From Bifidobacterium animalis subsp. animalis ATCC 25527 (GTDB taxonomy: Bacteria; Actinomycetota; Actinomycetes; Actinomycetales; Bifidobacteriaceae): DNA of 64,000 nt. The number at the start of each line of letters is the position of its first letter. Position 1 is the first letter of the stretch. The notes under the pieces are model-generated. The model worked only from the letters and a program-made list of their open reading frames with translations, had not been told where the DNA came from and searched no databases. The stretch spans positions 620,001 through 684,000 of the forward strand of contig NC_017834.1 in the NCBI RefSeq assembly GCF_000260715.1. The letters are read 5' to 3'. A program made the translations under genes and the position numbers. Positions 4,350-54,586 of the stretch are shown one piece after another.

Positions 4350-6032
4350 ATGACCGCAACGACCGCGACCATAGACATCACCAATCCCGTACTGCGGGGC
4401 ATGTACCCCGACCCAAGCTGGATGTGGGACGAGCGCGGGGAGCGCGTGGCCCTGGTGAATTCCTCGTTCGAACTGGTGCCGGGACTGCCGATCCACGTTT
4501 CAGACGATATCGCGAACTGGGAGCTTGCGGGGAACGCCGTCGACGAGGCGATGGCGCAACGGCTGCTGATCCCCTTCGTGCTTGATTCTGGGGGATTGTA
4601 TGCGCCGACATTGCGCATGATCCGCGGGAAGTACGTGATCGCATGCACGGTCGCCCGCATCGATCTGGACGCGGCCGCCGCAGCTGGGGTCGACCCGGAG
4701 TCGATCGAGGCGGCCCGCGCAAGCCAGGGCAACTTCATCATCGAAGCCGATGCGCTTGAGGGGCCATGGCGCGGCCCGTACTGGATCGAGGGCGCCGAGG
4801 GCATCGATCCAGACATCTTCGAGGACCTTGACGGCTCTGTGTACTGGACGCAGACAAGGCCGGCCGTACGCCCGCGCTGGGAAGGGCAGACCGAGGTGTG
4901 GACCCAGCGGATCGACCCGGAGACGTGGCGGCTGTGCGCGTCGCATGACGCAGACGGCGACTATGGCAAGACGGTCCTCTGGACGGGATACGGCGTGGAG
5001 GCGGTGTGGGCCGAAGGACCGCACCTGTACCGCATCGGCGATTGGGTGTATCTGATGACCGCAGAAGGCGGCACAAGCTTCGACCACAGCGAGATGACCA
5101 TGCGCACGTGGGCACCCGACGGGCTCGGACCGGCGATCGAATCCCTGCAGGGCCAAGCGCACGCAGACGGGACCGAGCCGCGCGCGCCACGTGCCGACGA
5201 ACGGTCGGTTGTGGGGCGGTATGCGCGACTGTTCCATCCGTGCAAGAAGAATCCGTTCCTGACACACCGGCATCTTGGTTTGGAGGAGCGCGTGCAGTGT
5301 GTGGGCCACGCCGATCTGCTGCATCATCCGCGGCTTGGCTGGTGGGCCGCGTGCCTGGGCTCGCGCGAGACCCCCACCGCGGACCATGGGGCGCTCAGCT
5401 TCCTAGGCAGGGAGACCTTTGTGGCACCTGTCGACTGGCAGCACGATCCGGCACAATGGTCGCTGGAATCCAATGGGCCCGCGCAAAGGCGGACTGATGA
5501 CCCGGGCTGGCCGATACTCGCCGGGGGAGCGGGGCGTCTGGCGCAGACATTGCGCATCGATGCGGCGGACGGGACCCTGCTCGATATGTGCATTGGTCCG
5601 TGCGAATCGCAGGCTGTCGTCGATGCGCGCATGCCTTTTGCCGTCGGCGACGGCGAAGGCGCGGCCGTGCGCGCGGATGGCACGGTGTACCGGCGTATGC
5701 CGGAAGACAGGTGCGTGGTGCTGTGCCCGCCGCGTGGCACGGTGCGTATCCGGCAGGACGGCCGCCATACGTTGAGCGTGGCGACCGATAGTGCGTCGGT
5801 GCAGTGGGCGCTCGGCGAGGGTACGGAGCGCAGGGAAGGCATGGTGCCGATCCCCGAGGGGGAGCCGGGATCGGTTATGCTCGTCTTCGACAAAGGCATG
5901 GCGCGTGTGGTCGTGGCGCAGTCCGCGGAACAGGCATGGACGGCGCCGGCCGTCGAGGTGATCGACGTGGCGCCGCTGAGCACCGAATGGTCCGGCGGCT
6001 TCGTGGGGTGCCTCGTCGGTTGTGACGCGTAG
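4350..6032 (+). CDS. Glycoside hydrolase family 43 enzyme (beta-xylosidase or arabinofuranosidase)
   Basis: 560 residues. The five-bladed GH43 catalytic domain fills the first ~330 residues: the general base Asp is in YPDPSW (residue 21), the pKa-setting Asp in GIDPDIF (~153), and the proton donor Glu in WAEGPHLY (~222). The rest forms a C-terminal beta-sandwich-like domain, as in the longer GH43 enzymes. No signal peptide, so it acts in the cytoplasm on imported oligosaccharides, most likely removing xylose or arabinose units. The start follows GGAGGACCACG. Whether it prefers xylose or arabinose cannot be read from the sequence. It is the least typical of the three GH43 enzymes here, with several insertions in the N-terminal domain. 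Confidence 0.85.
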   Translation: MTATTATIDITNPVLRGMYPDPSWMWDERGERVALVNSSFELVPGLPIHVSDDIANWELAGNAVDEAMAQRLLIPFVLDSGGLYAPTLRMIRGKYVIACTVARIDLDAAAAAGVDPESIEAARASQGNFIIEADALEGPWRGPYWIEGAEGIDPDIFEDLDGSVYWTQTRPAVRPRWEGQTEVWTQRIDPETWRLCASHDADGDYGKTVLWTGYGVEAVWAEGPHLYRIGDWVYLMTAEGGTSFDHSEMTMRTWAPDGLGPAIESLQGQAHADGTEPRAPRADERSVVGRYARLFHPCKKNPFLTHRHLGLEERVQCVGHADLLHHPRLGWWAACLGSRETPTADHGALSFLGRETFVAPVDWQHDPAQWSLESNGPAQRRTDDPGWPILAGGAGRLAQTLRIDAADGTLLDMCIGPCESQAVVDARMPFAVGDGEGAAVRADGTVYRRMPEDRCVVLCPPRGTVRIRQDGRHTLSVATDSASVQWALGEGTERREGMVPIPEGEPGSVMLVFDKGMARVVVAQSAEQAWTAPAVEVIDVAPLSTEWSGGFVGCLVGCDA

Positions 6033-7265: not shown

Positions 7266-8822
<1,557 letters not shown>

Positions 8823-8842
8823 TTGCGTCTGAGCAAGGTCCG

Positions 8843-8880
8843 GGATGGCTGGGCTATGCCTCATGGTCCAGCCATCCTTT
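8843..8880 (+). terminator. Intra-operon stem-loop after the binding protein
   Basis: The ten-pair stem GGATGGCTGG/CCAGCCATCC (8843-8852, 8868-8877) is followed by TTT. It probably stabilises the upstream message or terminates part of the transcripts, setting binding protein above permease. Confidence 0.65.
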
Positions 8881-8929
8881 CCCCTGGATGACGTATAACG
8901 AAACACCTTAGATACATGGGATTGATGAC

Positions 8930-9988
8930 ATGACTGAAATGAATGATGCCGTGGCAGTCGGGCGACCGGTTGCCGAAACGAAGAAGCGGGGCGGAGAACG
9001 CAAACCCTCTAACGGCAAGGGGCGCAGAAATCTCGAAATTTTCATCCTTTCCGCACCCGCGATTATCCTCTTCTGCTGCTTTGTGATTTTTCCGATCATT
9101 TTGGGCGCCTACTACGGCTTCTACCAGTGGAAGGGCTTTGGCACTCCGGCCGAGAACGGCAAGTTCGTCGGACTGCAGAACTACATCGTGGCGTTGAAGG
9201 ATCCGAACTTCCAACAGGCGATCCTGCACACCTTTGAAATCGTCATTGGGTCCCTCGTTATCCAGGGGCCGTTGGCCATCCTCTTCGCTCTCCTGCTCAA
9301 CCAGAAGTTCAAGGGACGTGGCCTGATCCGTACGCTCATCTTCGTGCCGTATGTCGTTTCGGAAGTCATCGTCGGCACCGGCTGGAGCCTGCTACTCCAG
9401 AAGAAGGGCGCGGTCAACCAGATCCTTGAATCACTCGGCATGCATGGTGTCGATTGGCTCGCTGATCCCAAGGTCGCGATCTGGACGCTGCTGTTGCTCA
9501 TCAGCTGGAAATACATCGGATTCGCCGTCATCCTCATGCTTGCAGGCATGCAGTCGATTCCTGAGGAACTGTACGAAGCGGCAAAGGTGGACGGTGCAGG
9601 GTTCTGGCAGATCCAGAAGAGCATCACACTGCCGTTGCTCGCCCCGACGCTGCGCATCTGGGTCTTCCTGTCGATGATCGGTTCGCTGCAGCTGTTCGAT
9701 TTGGTCTACATCATCTGGGGCCAGTACGTTTCCACGACGGCCGGCGTCTCCACAATGGCCACCTACATGGTCCGCGAGGGACGCGGTGCTGGCAACTACG
9801 GATATGGTTCCGCCGTCGCCCTCATCATTTTCGTCATCTCGCTGATTGTGGCGCTGACCTACCAGCACTTTGTGCTCAACCGTGATCTCGATGGCGCCTT
9901 GACCGAGAAGAAGGCGTCCAAGAAGCGCAGGAAGAGGCAGACCGCAGAAGATGAGGCCCTGGCGGTCGCCATGGAAGGAGTGAAGTGA
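8930..9988 (+). CDS. Sugar ABC transporter permease (MalF/MsmF type)
   Basis: 352 residues with six predicted membrane segments: one near residues 35-60, then five from about residue 110 to 310. A cytoplasmic EAA loop is visible as EELYEAAKVDGAGFWQIQK, the contact point for an ATPase. The N terminus is charged and cytoplasmic; the C terminus is a Lys/Arg-rich tail (KKASKKRRKRQ). The product pairs with the next gene's product to form the channel. The stop codon and the next start codon are one base apart, so the two are translationally coupled. No ATPase gene lies in the cluster; in bifidobacteria a shared MsmK-type ATPase encoded elsewhere normally serves such importers. Confidence 0.93.
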   Translation: MTEMNDAVAVGRPVAETKKRGGERKPSNGKGRRNLEIFILSAPAIILFCCFVIFPIILGAYYGFYQWKGFGTPAENGKFVGLQNYIVALKDPNFQQAILHTFEIVIGSLVIQGPLAILFALLLNQKFKGRGLIRTLIFVPYVVSEVIVGTGWSLLLQKKGAVNQILESLGMHGVDWLADPKVAIWTLLLLISWKYIGFAVILMLAGMQSIPEELYEAAKVDGAGFWQIQKSITLPLLAPTLRIWVFLSMIGSLQLFDLVYIIWGQYVSTTAGVSTMATYMVREGRGAGNYGYGSAVALIIFVISLIVALTYQHFVLNRDLDGALTEKKASKKRRKRQTAEDEALAVAMEGVK

Positions 9989-9989
9989 G

Positions 9990-10859
9990 ATGAGTGCTGC
10001 AACGGCATATTCCAAGAAAAACGGTTTCCACAAGTCCGCGAAGACCCCATGGGGCAACCCGATAGTCTATTTCTTCTCGCTTGTGCTCGTGGCGATTTGT
10101 ATCGTCCCGGTGCTTTACATCATCTTCGGCGGATTCCGTACCAACGCGCAGATCACCAACAACCCTGCCGGTCTGCCGAATCCCTGGGTGATCAGCAACT
10201 ACAAGGACGTCATCACCAGTGATATGTTCTGGACCGAGCTGGGCAACTCGCTGATCGCTGGCATCTGCACGATGGTCGGCGTCGTCGTCCTCGGCATCAT
10301 GGTCAGCTACGTCATCGCCCGCTACAAGTTCCGGTACTCGGCACTGATGTATGCGCTGTTCTCGGCGGGCCTCATGTTCCCGATGACCGTCGGTATCACT
10401 CCGCTGTACCTGATGATCAGGAATCTGGGTCTGTCGAACTCCCTTGCGGGCATTATCCTTCCGGGAATTGCTTTCGGTCTGCCGCAGACCATCATCATCC
10501 TGGTCCCCTTCCTGCAATCCATCCCGATGGAATTGGAGGAGGCGTGCCTGCTGGACGGTTGTTCTCGCCTCGGCTTCTTCTGGCGCATGGTCATCCCGCT
10601 GTCGATGCCCGGCGTCGCCACAACCGGCATCCTCACCTTCGTGGGAAGCTGGAACGGCTATATGCTTCCGCTCTTCGTCCTGAGCGATGAAAGCAAGTAC
10701 ACGCTTCCGCTTGGTGTGCAGATGTTCAGCTCCCAGCACTCGGTGGATACGGCCAGGGTCCTGGCGTTCACCTCGCTCGCCATGCTTCCGGCCCTCATCT
10801 GCTTCACGATCTTCCAGAAGAAGATCGTGGGTGGCCTGACCGGCGCGGTCAAGGGCTGA
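9990..10859 (+). CDS. Sugar ABC transporter permease (MalG/MsmG type)
   Basis: 289 residues, six predicted membrane segments, and the EAA loop MELEEACLLDGCSRLGFFWR that contacts the ATPase. It is the second channel subunit of the xylo-oligosaccharide importer. The start is one base after the stop of the upstream permease. The C-terminal IFQKKIVGGLTGAVKG is a hallmark of this permease family. Confidence 0.94.
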   Translation: MSAATAYSKKNGFHKSAKTPWGNPIVYFFSLVLVAICIVPVLYIIFGGFRTNAQITNNPAGLPNPWVISNYKDVITSDMFWTELGNSLIAGICTMVGVVVLGIMVSYVIARYKFRYSALMYALFSAGLMFPMTVGITPLYLMIRNLGLSNSLAGIILPGIAFGLPQTIIILVPFLQSIPMELEEACLLDGCSRLGFFWRMVIPLSMPGVATTGILTFVGSWNGYMLPLFVLSDESKYTLPLGVQMFSSQHSVDTARVLAFTSLAMLPALICFTIFQKKIVGGLTGAVKG

Positions 10860-10890
10860 TCTGACCCGCCGCCTGCAATGCACGAAGCGC

Positions 10891-10916
10891 GGCGGCCCGG
10901 TCACAACCGGGCCGCC
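10891..10916 (+). terminator. GC-rich stem-loop between permease and GH43
   Basis: The perfect ten-pair stem GGCGGCCCGG/CCGGGCCGCC with a 6-base loop is followed by GTTTCCTT. It ends 20 bases before the next start, so it may act as an attenuator or an mRNA end, and it overlaps the leader of the next gene. Confidence 0.7.
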
Positions 10917-10936
10917 GTTTCCTTAAGGAGATCGTT

Positions 10937-12562
10937 ATGAAGATCGAAAACCCGGTACTGCCCGGATTCAACGCCGATCCGTCGATGATCAGGGTCGGAG
11001 ACACCTACTACATCGCGAATTCCACGTTCGAATGGTGGCCTGGCGTGCGTCTGCACGAGTCGAAGGACATGGTGCATTGGCGCCTGTTGCCGAGCCCGCT
11101 GAACCGTCGTTCGCAGATCGACATGCGCGGCAACCCGTCCTCCGGTGGCGTGTGGGCTCCCGACCTGTCCTATGCGGACGGCAAGTTCTGGCTCGTGTAC
11201 TCCGATGTTAAAATCGTCAACGGCGCGTTCAAGGACTGCACGAACTACCTCGTGACCGCCGAGGACATCCGTGGCCCGTGGAGCGAACCGATCCGGATCA
11301 ACGGCGTTGGCTTCGATGCAAGCCTGTTCCATGACGATGACGGGCGCAAGTACCTCGTCCAGCAGACTTGGGATTTCCGTGAATACAACCATCCCTTCGA
11401 TGGCATCACGCTTACCGAGTTCGACGTCGAGACCATGCGCCTGCGCCCTGAGACCGAACGCACGATTTGGCGCGGCACCGATGTCAAACTCGTCGAAGGC
11501 CCACACCTGTACAAAATCAACGGCATGTACTACCTGTTCTGTGCCGAGGGCGGCACCGTCTGGACGCATCAGGAGGTCGTCGCGCGTTCCGCGACGCTCG
11601 ATGCGATGTCGTTCGAGGGGAGCCCGTACAACCCGTTCATCAGCAACTTCGACACCCCACGCAGCTACCTGCAGAAGCAGGGGCATGGCGCACTCGTGGA
11701 TACGCCATCCGGCGAATGGTACTACGCGTCGCTGTGTGGCCGGCCCTGGCACCATGAGAACGAATCGGTGACCGATCCGCGTGGATGGTGCACCCTGGGC
11801 CGCGAGACGTCCATCCAGAAAGTCGAATGGACCGATGACGGCTGGCCTGTCGTCGTCGGCGGTCATGGCGGACAACGCGTCGTCGAGGCGCCGCAAGACG
11901 CCATCGAGACCGAGGCACCGGCCGATCACAGCCAGCATGACGATTTCGAGGTGCCGCAGCTCGCCCTGGATTGGAACACGCTGCGTGTTCCCTTCGACGA
12001 ATCGATGGGTTCCGTCGGAGGCGGCACGCTGACCTTGCGTGGGCAGGGATCGCTGTGCAACCTCTTCGACCTGTCCCTCGTCGCCCGCCGTTGGCAGGCG
12101 TTCGATTTCGACGCGTCTGTCGGTGTGCGATTCGACCCCACCAACTACCGGCAGATGGCCGGTCTGACGAACTACTACAACGACCTGTGCTGGTCGTGGG
12201 CTTTCGTCACTTGGGATGAGAAGCGGCAGTGCCGTGTGATCGAAGTCGCCCAGAACGATTTCAACACCTACACCTCGTTCCTGCGGGACCGGGCGGTACC
12301 GGTTCCCGATGATGTGGAGACCGTATGGCTGCGCACGCGTGTGCGCACGCAGACCTATGGTTACGACTATTCGTTCGACGGTGAGCAGTGGCATGACCTC
12401 GGTGTCGAACTGGACGCGAAGATCCTGTCGGACGACTATGTGAATCAACGGTATGGCGGGTTCTTCACCGGAGCGTTCGTTGGGCTCGCGGCAGTGGACC
12501 TGTCGGGGTATGACGCAACGGCGGAGTTCGTGGACTTCGATTACCGCGAATTGAGTGAATGA
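10937..12562 (+). CDS. Glycoside hydrolase family 43 beta-xylosidase
   Basis: 541 residues, the usual length of GH43 subfamily 11-type beta-1,4-xylosidases (catalytic propeller plus C-terminal beta-sandwich). The base Asp14 is in GFNADPSMI, the pKa modulator Asp near 126 in FDASLF, and the acid Glu near 187 in VEGPHLYK. The C-terminal domain includes the run GLTNYYNDLCWSW typical of these two-domain xylosidases. No signal peptide, so cytoplasmic; the likely reaction is release of xylose from the non-reducing end of imported xylo-oligosaccharides. The start follows TTAAGGAG. Of the three GH43 proteins this is the closest to a classical XynB. Confidence 0.92.
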   Translation: MKIENPVLPGFNADPSMIRVGDTYYIANSTFEWWPGVRLHESKDMVHWRLLPSPLNRRSQIDMRGNPSSGGVWAPDLSYADGKFWLVYSDVKIVNGAFKDCTNYLVTAEDIRGPWSEPIRINGVGFDASLFHDDDGRKYLVQQTWDFREYNHPFDGITLTEFDVETMRLRPETERTIWRGTDVKLVEGPHLYKINGMYYLFCAEGGTVWTHQEVVARSATLDAMSFEGSPYNPFISNFDTPRSYLQKQGHGALVDTPSGEWYYASLCGRPWHHENESVTDPRGWCTLGRETSIQKVEWTDDGWPVVVGGHGGQRVVEAPQDAIETEAPADHSQHDDFEVPQLALDWNTLRVPFDESMGSVGGGTLTLRGQGSLCNLFDLSLVARRWQAFDFDASVGVRFDPTNYRQMAGLTNYYNDLCWSWAFVTWDEKRQCRVIEVAQNDFNTYTSFLRDRAVPVPDDVETVWLRTRVRTQTYGYDYSFDGEQWHDLGVELDAKILSDDYVNQRYGGFFTGAFVGLAAVDLSGYDATAEFVDFDYRELSE

Positions 12563-32972: not shown

Positions 32973-33021
32973 TTATCCACTGGGGCAGCGAGCGGTGTGG
33001 ATAATGGGTCCGTTATCCACC
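32973..33021. promoter_or_regulatory. Cluster of three DnaA boxes
   Basis: TTATCCACT (32973-32981), TGTGGATAA (32996-33004, minus-strand perfect TTATCCACA) and TTATCCACC (33013-33021) lie within 49 bases. The second and third face each other and can form GTGGATAA/TTATCCAC pairing. DnaA-controlled expression of the downstream ssb-like gene is a reasonable inference. Confidence 0.65.
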
Positions 33022-33036
33022 GCTGTACCGACACGC

Positions 33037-33057
33037 CGTCCTCCGACCACAATGCCC
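33037..33057 (+). repeat. 21-nt element shared with 53483-53503
   Basis: A perfect 21-base match to the minus strand of 53483-53503 (core CCTCCGACCACAATGCC). Here it lies 72 bases before the ssb-like start codon; at the other site it lies 66 bases before the start of the hypothetical gene, in the same orientation to the gene. Both neighbourhoods carry DnaA boxes. Confidence 0.85.
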
Positions 33058-33129: not shown

Positions 33130-33849
33130 ATGGCATTACAACAAGGAGCGGTCACGATCACCGGGTATCTCGGCGCGGATCCCCAACAGTACGGCAGGAA
33201 TCCGAGTCGCCCTGCATGCACGTTCCGACTGGGGTCTACACGCAGGTATCAGGATCGCAATGGCGTATGGCAGCAACTGCCGACTACATGGCTCACCGTC
33301 AAAGCCTTTCGTGGCCTAGCGGCCAACATCATGCAATCGCTGCATAAAGGCGACCCGGCCATAGTCACCGGATTGCTCAACACCGAGCAATGGCGCGACG
33401 AGCAGGGTGTGGATCATTCACGTCTGGTGCTCGAGGCGAGCAACGTCGGTTTGGACCTGAACTACGTGGTCACGATGTCGATGCGCACGCCGCGAGAAGG
33501 GTACACGGGACAGCAGGCGCCCTCACAGATGGCATCTGACGAGCAGGGTGCCCCCATGCGTCCACAGACCCAGCAGTCTGCGGCAGCTCCTCAATCAACC
33601 CTGTCACACTCCTCCATGGCACCGGGCGATGACGGAGGCAATTCCGCGGATCCCTTCAACCAGATGCCGCCGGATTGCATGCCTCCCGATGCCGCTGCGA
33701 GCATGCCACAGCAAGGGGATCAACGGGATGCAGCCGTGGAGCCATCGGCAGGCAACGGGATGCCGCCCCCGGATTTGGAACACGGTTGCGCAACCGACAC
33801 GACGAACCCGCGAAAGGGGGTGAGGCCTGAGGATCAAGACGAATTCTAA
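33130..33849 (+). CDS. Single-stranded DNA-binding protein (second-type SSB paralogue)
   Basis: 239 residues. The OB-fold SSB domain is in the first ~115 residues (TITGYLGADPQQYGR, ACTFRLGSTRRYQDRNGVW, WLTVKAFRGLAANIMQSLHKGDPAIVTGLL, then LVLEASNVGLDLNY). The rest is a long Gln/Pro/Met/Asp-rich tail of low complexity, ending EDQDEF, an acidic tip resembling but not identical to the usual DDDIPF-type end. The ribosome site GAAAGAGGCTTAC precedes the ATG. It stands alone, not beside rpsF-rpsR, so it is unlikely to be the main replicative SSB; a role in repair or DNA uptake is inference. The leader carries DnaA boxes. Confidence 0.85.
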   Translation: MALQQGAVTITGYLGADPQQYGRNPSRPACTFRLGSTRRYQDRNGVWQQLPTTWLTVKAFRGLAANIMQSLHKGDPAIVTGLLNTEQWRDEQGVDHSRLVLEASNVGLDLNYVVTMSMRTPREGYTGQQAPSQMASDEQGAPMRPQTQQSAAAPQSTLSHSSMAPGDDGGNSADPFNQMPPDCMPPDAAASMPQQGDQRDAAVEPSAGNGMPPPDLEHGCATDTTNPRKGVRPEDQDEF

Positions 33850-51954: not shown

Positions 51955-51998
51955 TCCGTGCGTTGCTCGCATTCGGACACTCCGTGTGAGGGTCGGCC

Positions 51999-52426
51999 TG
52001 CAAAGTTGATTATCCAGATGTTAGTGTGTGCGCTTTGCTGAGTGCGGAGTTGCAAAGGTGACTGTCGGAATCCTGCTGCGCGTGTCCAGCTGGGAGCGGA
52101 GTTGCAAAGGTGGCCATCAGAGAGGCGATTCATTTGCCGGTGCGGAATCCGCACTGCAAGCGAGGCCATCGTGGAAGCTGTTCGGTGGTCGTGTTTGCAG
52201 ATTCGCTCTCGCTCGCGCAAAAGTAGATCCCGCATGGTGGTTCGTGTGGGAGTCGGCATGCAAAAGCGGCAATCTGCAGACTCGTCCGTTTGCTGGAGCG
52301 CGGCCCAGTGTGCAAGAGTGGCAACCTGGGGACTGATTCATATGTCGCGGGAAGATTCAGTTTGCAAAGGCGACCGTTAAGAAATAATCTGCATGTCTCT
52401 GTGAGAACGGAATTGCACAAGCGACA
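51999..52426. repeat. Left array of a degenerate motif at 52-bp spacing
   Basis: A ~13-base motif near TGCAARRGYGRCH recurs at 51999, 52051, 52103, 52155, 52259, 52311, 52363 and 52414, i.e. at steps of 52, 52, 52, 104, 52, 52 and 51. The missing step (52207) is filled by a variant unit with TGCAGATTCGC (52196) and CGCAAAAGTAG (52216). Bases before the motif (often GCGGAGT) are partly kept; the other ~30 bases vary widely. It fills the 526-base gap after the amino-acid ATPase gene. 52 is not a multiple of 3 and no frame runs through, so it is not coding. It equals five turns of B-DNA. Confidence 0.88.
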
Positions 52427-52480
52427 ATATGAGCGCATGGAACAGCGGCCCGCGCAAGACATATAGAGCTCGGCGCACGG

Positions 52481-53416
52481 CTAGGAGACATAGGGTACTC
52501 CTGCTTGCTCGAGTTTGCGGCGAAGCTGATCGGGGTGCACCACGTCGTTGTATGAGAAATGCACGATCTGCGAAACGCCGCAGCGACGAAGCGCCTCATC
52601 TCGTTCACGTTCTGCCAGCACGCGCTGCTCAATGGTTTTTGATCCTACCATCTGCGGATTCACGTATTTCTCCATGCCATCGAACTCCCCAACGATGACT
52701 CTGCCGTCGGCCAATCGCCACAGGTAATCCGTGCGATATGTCTTTCTTGTCACGGGGTCGAAAAAACTGATCTGCAATTCCGGAACCACGAAACCCAGCA
52801 CAATAATCACGGCACGCGCCTTCGATTCGCCGCCGCTCTCACTGCGAGGATCTGCGAAATGCAACAGTCGTAAGACGGGACTCACATCACGCGACATGGT
52901 TCCCATGACTTCCATGATCTGTTTGAAGTGCGTGATGGACGCGGAATCGAACATCGGCAGCGTTTCTTCGAAAGGCAGCAACAAAGCACAATCTACCAAT
53001 GTGTGTGCCGGATTCGTGACCAGCAATCCCTGCATGCTGATTGCCGAGTCCATATCCGTGTAAATATGCTGAGTCCGTTCGGAAGTCCAGTTTCGTCGTG
53101 CGGCACAGACGATCGTGCCGTCGTGCAATGCGTGGCTCAATGGGAAGCCAAGCAGGGTGGCGGCGGTCTTGCCGGCAAATACCACGCCGGGATTGTACCG
53201 ATTCACCGTGCGGCAGATATGCCATGTTCGCTCGGCCGGGCGCAGGGAATCCCAGTAATCTGGCCGCACATAACAATTCCTGAACACTTGGTTGAGCTCG
53301 CCGGATCTCGCTCTGCGTGCTAGCGCGACTCGCTCGTTGCGATTGCATGCATATGCGCAACGATGTCCATGCTGGGCGGAGTCAAGCAGTTGCTCGACCA
53401 CTCTGTTTCTGCGCAT
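52481..53416 (-). CDS. Hypothetical protein of AbiEi/DUF559-like architecture
   Basis: 311 residues from ATG 53416, preceded by the strong site AAAGGAGGCGAGG; a longer frame to 53506 would run over the shared 21-nt element. The N-terminal half resembles the AbiEi-type antitoxin/winged-helix family of Actinobacteria (ALARRARSGELNQVFRNCYVRPDYW, then VFAGKTAATLLGFPL and NPAHTLVDCALLLPFEE); the C-terminal half looks like a DUF559/VSR-type nuclease-like fold (YLWRLADGRVIVGEFDGMEKY, then RERDEALRRCGVSQIVHFSYNDV). No partner toxin gene is adjacent. It is alone between two repeat arrays. Assignment is by visual similarity only; function is unknown. Confidence 0.7.
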   Translation of the reverse strand: MRRNRVVEQLLDSAQHGHRCAYACNRNERVALARRARSGELNQVFRNCYVRPDYWDSLRPAERTWHICRTVNRYNPGVVFAGKTAATLLGFPLSHALHDGTIVCAARRNWTSERTQHIYTDMDSAISMQGLLVTNPAHTLVDCALLLPFEETLPMFDSASITHFKQIMEVMGTMSRDVSPVLRLLHFADPRSESGGESKARAVIIVLGFVVPELQISFFDPVTRKTYRTDYLWRLADGRVIVGEFDGMEKYVNPQMVGSKTIEQRVLAERERDEALRRCGVSQIVHFSYNDVVHPDQLRRKLEQAGVPYVS

Positions 53417-53482
53417 CCTCGCCTCCTTTCGTGTGGCATGTAGCCATCTAAGCAGCGTGGGGCGGTGGTGTACAGCGGAATC

Positions 53483-53540
53483 GGGCATTGTGGTCGGAGG
53501 ACGCATTATTCACAACGGCGGTCGTTGCAATTGTGGACAG
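53483..53540. promoter_or_regulatory. Shared 21-nt element and DnaA-box-like sites upstream of the hypothetical gene
   Basis: 53483-53503 (minus strand) equals 33037-33057 over 21 bases. Next to it TTATTCACA (53506-53514) fits the DnaA box TTATNCACA exactly, and TGTGGACAG (53532-53540, minus strand CTGTCCACA) is one base off TTGTCCACA. The element and boxes are arranged as at the ssb-like gene, which suggests common control of the two genes. Confidence 0.55.
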
Positions 53541-53633
53541 TCACGTGCGCGCCTTGCAAAAGCGCTGGCAAGAAGACGAGCGTTGATGAAGTCTGTCGCG
53601 ATGGATTGCGGGATGTCTTGTAGTGGTTTCAGA

Positions 53634-54474
53634 TGCAAAGATGAATATCGAGATTGTTTTCACGTGCTATATCGGAGTTCGTTTTGCAAAGGAGACTCTT
53701 TCTGAACCTCTTCGTGTGTCGTGGTAGGACCTGATTTGCAATAGCGGTTAGATAGCGGTTGTTCACATTGCCGGTAGAGCAAATGAAATGCAAGGAAGGC
53801 AATATGAGCACTGATTCGCATGCCGCGGTGAGGCTCATTCGCAAAGGTGACTATCGTGATTCTGCTGTACGTGCGCAGTTGGTAGCGGAGTTGCAAAGCC
53901 GGCTATCGGGATCTTGTTGCGTGTACGCAGTTGAGGGTGAGTCTGCAAGGATGGCTATTGGGATTTTGCTGCAGGTGTCCAGCTGGGAGCAGAGTTGCAA
54001 ACGCGACTGGCGGAATCCTGCTGCAGATGTTCAACTGAGTGCGGATTTGCAAAGGTGACTGTGGAAATCCTGTTGTGCTGGTCCAGCTGGGAGCGGAGTT
54101 GCAAGTGTGGTCATGCAAGAGAGTTTCGTTTGCTGTGACGAGATTGCGATTGCAAAAGAATCAATCTGATGAGTTACCAGAGGGTCATGTTTGCAGATTC
54201 GCTCTCGCTCGCGCAAAAGTAGGGCCCGCATGGTGGTTCGTGTGGGGCTCGGTGTGCAAGAGTGGCAGTCTGGAGACTGATTCACGTGCCGTGGGAAGAT
54301 TCAGTTTGCGAAAGAGACTGCTGAGGAATTCTTTCTATGCCCTTATGAGAGGGGATCTGCAAAAGAGGTAATCCTCCTTATATGCTTATATGCCGTGGTG
54401 AGACTCGGAGTGCGAGAGCGACACTCTAAGGAGCGTCGCGATGCTGTAATGCGGTTCAGTTTGCAAAAATGGCA
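53634..54474. repeat. Right array of the 52-bp-spaced motif
   Basis: The motif occurs at 53634, 53685, 53737, 53789, 53840, 53892, 53944, 53996, 54048, 54100, 54151, 54255, 54307, 54358, 54411 and 54462; steps are 51, 52 or 53 except one double step (104) that again holds the TGCAGATTCGC (54192) variant unit. Weaker matches at 53526, 53555 and 53607 extend it leftwards. Units 53840-54048 share a longer body (GGAATYCTGCTG, GTCCAGCTGGGAG) with the left unit 52051, so they form a younger subfamily. No coding frame with a ribosome site crosses it. Confidence 0.88.
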
Positions 54475-54526
54475 CTCTGGAATCGTCTCACAGTGTTGTA
54501 CGTGCCCTTATGCTGTATGCGTCTCC

Positions 54527-54586
54527 GACTGCATGCCGAGTGGCTGCATACCGATCGGCCGCATATCGATTGGCTGCGTAACAGGG
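54527..54586. repeat. Four short tandem repeats of 15 bp
   Basis: GACTGCATGCCGAGT, GGCTGCATACCGATC, GGCCGCATATCGATT and GGCTGCGTAACAGGG follow each other directly after the right array. The first three are near copies with the core GCATRYCGA; the fourth is more diverged. A weak open frame crosses them, but without a credible start. Confidence 0.6.

Follow-up and report, generated by a model that had tools for sequence, protein, structure and literature searches.

The antitoxin AbiEi of the type IV toxin-antitoxin system AbiE binds two 23-bp inverted repeats that lie 3 bp apart, and the operator of Rv2827c consists of two pairs, its gaps measuring 13 bp (internal) and 4 bp (external) (PMC7319586). 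By arithmetic, tandem repetition of such operators gives pitches of 52 bp (AbiEi) and 63 bp (Rv2827c), which are the two main pitches of the arrays reported here. Noc has about 70 sites and none in the terminus region (PMC4331003). The present analysis concerns a 64,000-nucleotide stretch of Bifidobacterium animalis subsp. animalis ATCC 25527 (NC_017834.1, positions 620,001–684,000; hereafter the window, in whose coordinates features are given unless stated otherwise). It contains two arrays of a degenerate motif recurring every 52 bp, and the 1.2-kb gap between them proved to hold an unannotated protein-coding gene on the minus strand, the product of which is predicted to combine an AbiEi-like and a Vsr-like nuclease part. 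The first-pass annotation of the window had noticed the arrays and had missed the gene, the genus-wide pairing of such genes with arrays, and the inverted units within the 104-bp double steps.

The left array (51978–52464, plus strand, downstream of the gene) comprised eight forward motif units and one inverted unit; the right array (53612–54495, plus strand, upstream of the gene) comprised sixteen forward units and one inverted unit. Motif starts, set by hand from autocorrelation and motif output, were placed at 51998, 52050, 52102, 52154, 52258, 52310, 52362, and 52413 in the left array. In the right array they were placed at 53633, 53684, 53736, 53788, 53839, 53891, 53943, 53995, 54047, 54099, 54150, 54254, 54306, 54357, 54410, and 54461. 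The 22 within-array steps measured 52 bp (13 times), 51 bp (six), 53 bp (one), and 104 bp (two), and the counts and steps given in the first-pass annotation (8 and 16 copies, steps of 51–53, double steps of exactly 104) were thus borne out. Its expectation of a 52-base autocorrelation peak held as well. Against 200 first-order Markov simulations per region, lags 52, 104, and 156 reached z 7.8, 4.4, and 3.7 in 51955–52480 and z 8.2, 8.7, and 6.2 in 53507–54500, and no lag exceeded z 2.8 in the gene between the arrays. Some of the motif copies were weak; the one at 52154 scored under the 11-of-14 cut. Each 104-bp double step held an inverted copy on the minus strand, CTGCAAACACGACC at 52187–52200 (score 12.3) and CTGCAAACATGACC at 54183–54196 (score 12.8), against a 99.9th percentile of 4.6 for plus-strand positions in 1–50000. 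The units with the inverted copies, at 52206 and 54202, were 92% identical, and the left array matched the latter half of the right one in collinear order, mean unit identity being 0.71 with an offset of 7 and 0.60–0.66 at the remaining offsets. The columns with the strongest signal were those of TGCAA, the final G and the C of GYGRC, and a G lying 18 bases ahead of the motif, and similarity ran on through the whole units beyond the motif. This similarity and the degeneracy of the repeats agree with the earlier opinion that the arrays are not a normal CRISPR (cas genes were not searched for), and their non-coding nature was upheld by arithmetic, 52 not being a multiple of 3. Tandem Repeats Finder alone reported 52-bp rows for 53851–54104 only. 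A 15-bp tandem repeat of 3.3 copies was present just past the right array (54529–54577).

The gene between the arrays (52481–53416, minus strand) encodes 311 amino acids; it starts with the ATG at 53416, which is preceded by the Shine-Dalgarno-like AAAGGAGG (53422–53429, minus strand), and the open frame extends to 53506. According to the structure model (pLDDT 93.1) and structural matches, residues 1–188 are predicted to have the fold of the AbiEi antitoxin and residues 191–308 that of a Vsr-like PD-(D/E)XK nuclease, numbered on a 310-residue piece without the first methionine. Residues of nuclease type (E196, D229, E243, D245, and K249) were invariant among relatives. By predicted fold, the protein would belong to the AbiE antitoxins in its first part; in its second part, fold and catalytic-type residues point to a Vsr-like PD-(D/E)XK enzyme with putative cleavage activity, a part with a resemblance that we take to be DUF559-like. 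Foldseek alone gave no PDB match for the protein at E ≤ 0.001, a PDB sequence search gave no usable match, and neither Pfam nor NCBIfam assigned a family. The window neighbors of the gene encode an ABC-transporter ATPase, a LuxR-type response regulator, and a SIS/glutamine-amidotransferase protein; no AbiEii-type (DUF1814) toxin gene was present among them. A second copy of the gene, at 1,879 kb of the own genome, had metabolic-looking neighbors (judged by reading alone). Two more relatives, at 1,450,967–1,451,897 and 1,697,081–1,697,959 of the own genome, appear to be broken: both have one internal stop, and one of them is split into two pieces.

Sequence search revealed relatives of the gene in at least 95 of 112 Bifidobacterium genomes, several per genome. 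We examined 82 Bifidobacterium loci and five others. The 82 loci comprised 77 places in genomes of the genus (chosen mostly among the top-ranked relatives listed, not all of which were taken), the window, two own-genome paralogs, and two named records that may repeat a species; the stretch L036 was left out since it has no gene. An adjacent array was detected at 43 of the 82 loci, upstream of the gene at 34 and on both sides at 17. When the count was restricted to whole-turn lags not divisible by 3, since coding sequence does not mimic such lags, 50 arrays were found in 194 kb of gene-adjacent sequence vs. three in 478 kb elsewhere in these loci. B-DNA has 10.4–10.5 bp per turn, and the strong pitches corresponded to 5, 6, and 7 helical turns: all 54 adjacent segments with z ≥ 7.3, a cut picked after inspection of the list, had lags of 51–53, 61–63, or 73–74, or their doubles. 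Seven of the 16 weaker segments (z 6.5–7.3) had other lags (36, 48 twice, 72, 81, 84, and 95). Array fitting was restricted to periods of 50–54, 60.5–64, and 72–75, and only the scans of lags 25–130 therefore bear on the quantisation of periods. The 35 loci with well-fitted arrays represented 19 protein families at 60% identity; the period is thus not one inherited value, although 52 dominates. At L079 (5591–18071, in G063), five arrays of 63-bp pitch surrounded one gene relative within 20 kb. Outside the genus, a relative in Pseudonocardia endophytica (L147) had a 19-bp tandem repeat on both flanks (8565–9286 and 10634–11136), and the other four loci had no adjacent array. The apparent 38-bp period of L147 is this 19-bp repeat and was excluded from the counts; it suggests that pairing of gene and array, with another pitch, may extend beyond the genus.

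The motif of the arrays followed the protein. In the set of adjacent arrays with a fit score above 215, from which L044U0, L085U0, and L065D0 were removed by hand as coding or poor fits, motif similarity averaged 0.74 within one gene locus (15 pairs) and 0.30 between loci (sd 0.10), and it tracked protein identity over 35 loci (Mantel r 0.74). Three pairs of loci from the same genome had motif similarities of 0.42, 0.37, and 0.30, near the mean between loci.

Of 64 adjacent arrays, 50 had a dyadic unit profile (p < 0.01). The second own-genome copy at 1,879 kb was flanked by dyad arrays with the half-site RYGGYMNRTYTTACGGAAG, and this dyad formed 118 units in 20 clusters over the own chromosome (5 of 123 candidates scored below 10 and were dropped). 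Of 97 short spacings in this set, 89 were exactly 52 bp and six were 51 bp, units having been accepted only at distances that differ by no more than 2 from a multiple of 52. Arms of a hairpin should match better within one unit than between units. Arm complementarity in the 118 units was not above that of permuted arms (z −2.4, with central columns influenced by unit selection). Over 30 arrays arm pairing gave a Stouffer score of −1.3 and duplex energies +2.3, the wrong direction for hairpins; both L042 arrays showed positive arm pairing (z 2.1 each), and the window flanks gave p ≥ 0.10 in all eight tests. Without arm covariation, the units look like double-stranded DNA sites and not like RNA hairpins.

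Three further motifs other than that of the window were also dispersed over genomes, making four with RYGGYMNRTYTTACGGAAG. The half-dyad GCGGGGCAAAACCTCG (at most one mismatch) had 11, 12, 4, 22, and 2 matches in G014, G023, G031, G067, and G073, which are five of the six genomes with this motif at the gene locus by eye; G020, the sixth, had none. The two matches in G073 are weak, its control being 1. Elsewhere among the 112 genomes, five had one match each, and the reversed control gave six in all. Motif TCCTCCAGTNACTGGA had 36, 36, 27, 14, 11, and 9 matches in G037, G060, G019, G027, G040, and G018; the three in G029 were at control level, single control genomes having up to 4. A fourth dispersed dyad was present in G045. 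By eye, dispersed units had the dyad in common and not the linkers. The window motif (at most two mismatches) gave four matches in its own genome, all at the window locus, and one each in six other genomes, in a search that a degenerate array could escape.

In G000, G014, G019, and G027, dnaA lies at the start of the sequence. Three motifs formed 41 array clusters in these four genomes; seven of the clusters were in the terminus-proximal half, and one was beyond 0.6 of the way to the terminus. The pooled Kolmogorov–Smirnov test for origin bias gave p 8e-6 (singly, 0.0004 for G000, 0.037 for both G014 and G019, and 0.61 for G027); clusters of related species are not independent, and conservation of origin-proximal genes could contribute. 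In G000, neighboring clusters were merged to 17 places, and a lone one-mismatch match at 359,574 was left out. The own genome had the gene at only one of the 17 places of its dispersed motif. The window arrays lie at 0.70, and a chromosome-wide role is supported only for motifs other than theirs.

Dyad columns 3–5 from the center were conserved. At gene loci none of 59 cells had changed in these columns vs. 73 of 296 in outer, low-information columns; between gene-bearing and gene-less genomes, the numbers were 3 of 131 vs. 107 of 613. Across all three sets of orthologous arrays compared, columns 3–5 changed at 0–3% and the others at 17–26%; units were located by the core in one genome per pair, a bias that can at most about halve the core rate and is too small to explain the whole drop. 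Columns 10, 11, and 17, which were not used for finding units, were lower in two sets (6 of 60, p 0.011; 14 of 118, p 0.0005) and not lower in the set of gene-bearing vs. gene-less genomes (21 of 126, p 0.90). Some sequences enter more than one of the three comparisons, which are not independent.

Upstream of the window gene, a 32-bp element, GGGCATTGTGGTCGGAGGACGCATTATTCACA (53483–53514, plus strand), ends in TTATTCACA (53506–53514), a one-letter variant of TTATCCACA, the box found upstream of most relatives. TTATCCACA is the sequence of the oriC boxes, seven of which cluster near dnaA at 2077–2298 of the own genome. It was located 61–191 bp ahead of the gene match in 53 of the 82 loci (62 sites) and had no match in the remaining 625 kb of sequence at these loci, a figure that excludes gene bodies. 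ACACGCC, often directly behind the box, occurred within 300 bp upstream in 36 of the 82 loci, with about 0.03 expected per locus. One TTATCCACA is present inside the window (32996–33004). There, TTATCCAC-type boxes and GACACGCC at 32973–33037 precede a gene of the SSB family (33130–33849), and the same elements stand upstream of many AbiEi-Vsr genes. Inverted TTATCCACA pairs at 5020–5054 and 8811–8862 of L036 (about 251.0 and 254.8 kb of the own genome) adjoin genes of the T2SSE and T2SSF families, which we take for a tad pilus locus; the first pair adjoins a near copy of the 32-bp element, beside secretion-ATPase genes. Since TTATCCACA boxes stand upstream of most relatives, we infer from these promoter sequences that expression of the AbiEi-Vsr genes may be timed by DnaA or be under a regulator common to ssb and secretion/pilus genes. 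Elsewhere in the own genome, four TTATCCACA boxes were found within 250 bp (L131, 4613–4861; about 89.6–89.9 kb), and a dispersed 52-bp array lies a few hundred bases away; this cluster of boxes is possibly a DnaA-titrating or replication-control site. A 17-letter element, AATGTGGTCGGAGGACG, was considered as a general upstream feature and rejected, its upstream best-mismatch distribution being that of the control; by eye, near-complete copies stood only at L050, the window gene, and the 251-kb genes.

Our preferred explanation, to which we give somewhat better than even chances, is that the arrays are helically phased operator arrays of AbiEi type, bound by the protein of the adjacent gene. 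Tandem AbiEi and Rv2827c operators would give the observed 52 and 63 bp, and the arrays are therefore taken as amplified operators of this kind. They would be rows of double-stranded DNA sites, and the protein whose gene they flank would recognize them with its AbiEi-like part. Steps of five helical turns put every site on the same side of the helix, which would allow side-by-side contacts and cooperative binding along one face. The bound protein may repress its own promoter, and a large local nucleoprotein complex could form, within which the Vsr-like nuclease would sit. In genomes with a dispersed motif the same complex might assemble at many places, mostly toward the origin. The window motif was found only at its own locus in its genome, and for the window arrays a local role is therefore likeliest: the protein encoded between them would regulate its own synthesis and be titrated by them. 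The first-pass annotation had offered a one-face platform for a cooperative DNA-binding protein as one reading; the pitches of 5, 6, and 7 turns, the conserved innermost columns, and the dyads without covariation speak for it, the units of the window arrays, which are not dyads, speak against it, and the binding itself we infer.

Several observations weigh against this explanation. Neither window array was a dyad (p 0.34 and 0.72), unlike the AbiEi operator. At the threshold used, 39 of the 82 gene loci had no adjacent array, among them L034, the nearest relative (55% identical). Even without binding, gene and motif inherited together could yield the Mantel correlation. TTATCCACA also occurred nine times, at two places, in 146 kb of 16 other own-genome stretches and is therefore not exclusive to AbiEi-Vsr genes. 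The main difficulty comes from G018, G040, and G060, which carry a dispersed motif and no gene by sequence or profile search. At the gene-plus-array locus of G019 and G037, these three genomes have collinear flanks with the gene absent, one or two units left, and different junctions (the G018 flank alignments overlap by 9 bases); we read the absences as probable separate losses. Among gene-less genomes, columns 3–5 had changed in 3 of 115 cells vs. 151 of 576 in outer columns. The arrays thus outlast the gene or serve something else too, and the preferred explanation has to assume another binder or a recent loss of the gene.

Such losses would also fit a selfish module of gene and array, spread in a homing-like manner by the Vsr-like nuclease, with stray arrays as its targets or footprints. 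Several relatives per genome, unlike motifs in the three same-genome pairs compared, arrays on both sides forming long direct repeats, and invariant nuclease-type residues would suit such a module. The dispersed units, with their common dyad and unlike linkers, do not; arrays at the same places in related species and innermost columns kept without the gene look more like a host function, and we hold this explanation only tentatively, as rather unlikely. A broader host role is also conceivable: fast-diverging AbiEi-Vsr proteins, DnaA-box promoters, and phased origin-proximal dyad arrays may together make up a replication-timed system that marks or organizes the chromosome, in which the window locus would count as a young or private, undispersed member. 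It could act like nucleoid occlusion (we know of no named nucleoid-occlusion protein in the bifidobacterial phylum) or serve self-marking during DNA uptake, which was considered because the promoter boxes are common to the ssb gene and the secretion/pilus genes. We regard this proposal as speculative and unlikely. A different host protein, for instance a nucleoid protein, could bind the arrays, and the gene would then be a passenger that tends to sit there. The persistence of arrays in gene-less genomes, the single gene among 17 places of one motif in the own genome, and the excess of clusters near the origin, which suggests a chromosome-wide role, are what one would expect of such a binder. 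One conserved protein should give one motif, and the motifs differ between loci of one genome and follow the gene clade, which makes this account quite unlikely.

Structured non-coding RNA, the other reading given in the first-pass annotation, did not stand up for the window. Hairpin modules had been suspected from nested-stem-like consensus folds of relatives and from hand-paired window units; this candidate was rejected on the basis of energies and arm permutation. The window arrays had no excess fold stability (z −0.5/−0.8 and −0.1/0.4), their arm pairing was not above permuted, and no Rfam match was obtained in them at gathering thresholds. Arrays of L039, L042, L044, L050, and L058 did form stable dyad folds (z −4.9 to −10.1 for one strand or both, with one of 48 control pieces at z −4.1), and in consensus folds the strand energies differed in several arrays. 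Counts of G.U vs. A.C cells per array were mixed in direction, many arrays being without pairs in this ungapped test. Repeating RNA hairpin modules are, in our judgment, highly improbable. A neutral, decaying minisatellite without function is very unlikely too, even if the window arrays are degenerate, contain a collinear block duplication, and are private to their own genome at the sensitivity used: in the relatives columns 3–5 are conserved in all three orthologous sets, the spacings of the own dispersed set are overwhelmingly exactly 52 bp, and arrays are paired with one gene family.

If the pairing holds, it defines a class of chromosomal elements spread across a genus of well-studied gut bacteria: a solitary AbiEi-nuclease fusion is accompanied by long phased rows of its own sites, with several motif dialects per genus. 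It would then offer a natural set of protein/DNA-motif pairs for AbiEi specificity and a candidate for chromosome organization or cell-cycle control. In open-licence papers we found no description of such arrays or of such a gene-array pairing.

Plasmid iterons and centromere arrays are direct, helically phased repeats bound cooperatively. The arrays described here are likewise direct and helically phased, with cooperative binding a supposition; unlike iterons, they are chromosomal, lie beside a nuclease-like gene, are dyads in most relatives, and, in the window, have neither a replication gene nor a ParA gene next to them. REP/BIME elements with RAYT are palindromic intergenic repeats placed around one gene, a tyrosine transposase, and also dispersed. 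Palindromic intergenic repeats around one gene together with dispersed copies are found here as well, with a regular pitch of 52 or 63 bp and an AbiEi/Vsr fold in place of the tyrosine transposase. Residues 191–308 resemble Vsr PD-(D/E)XK endonucleases in predicted fold and catalytic-type residues; unlike the stand-alone Vsr mismatch endonuclease, this part is joined in one protein with an AbiEi-like DNA-binding part, and its gene lies between arrays. Dispersed palindromes that are sparse near the terminus recall the sites of Noc and SlmA; fixed-pitch tandem arrays, a clade-specific motif, and another protein fold distinguish the present system, and the window motif was not found dispersed. 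With AbiEi and Rv2827c it has in common the predicted fold of residues 1–188, inverted-repeat sites in most relatives, and the operator pitch. It departs from AbiE in the fused nuclease, in the lack of an AbiEii-type partner among the window neighbors, in the number and placement of sites (8–16, flanking the gene on both sides, vs. two or four in the promoter), in the dispersed arrays of some genomes, and in window units that are not dyads. AbiEi operators, PD-(D/E)XK nucleases, DnaA boxes, and dispersed palindromes are all known, and it is their genus-wide arrangement as gene and array that appears to be new.

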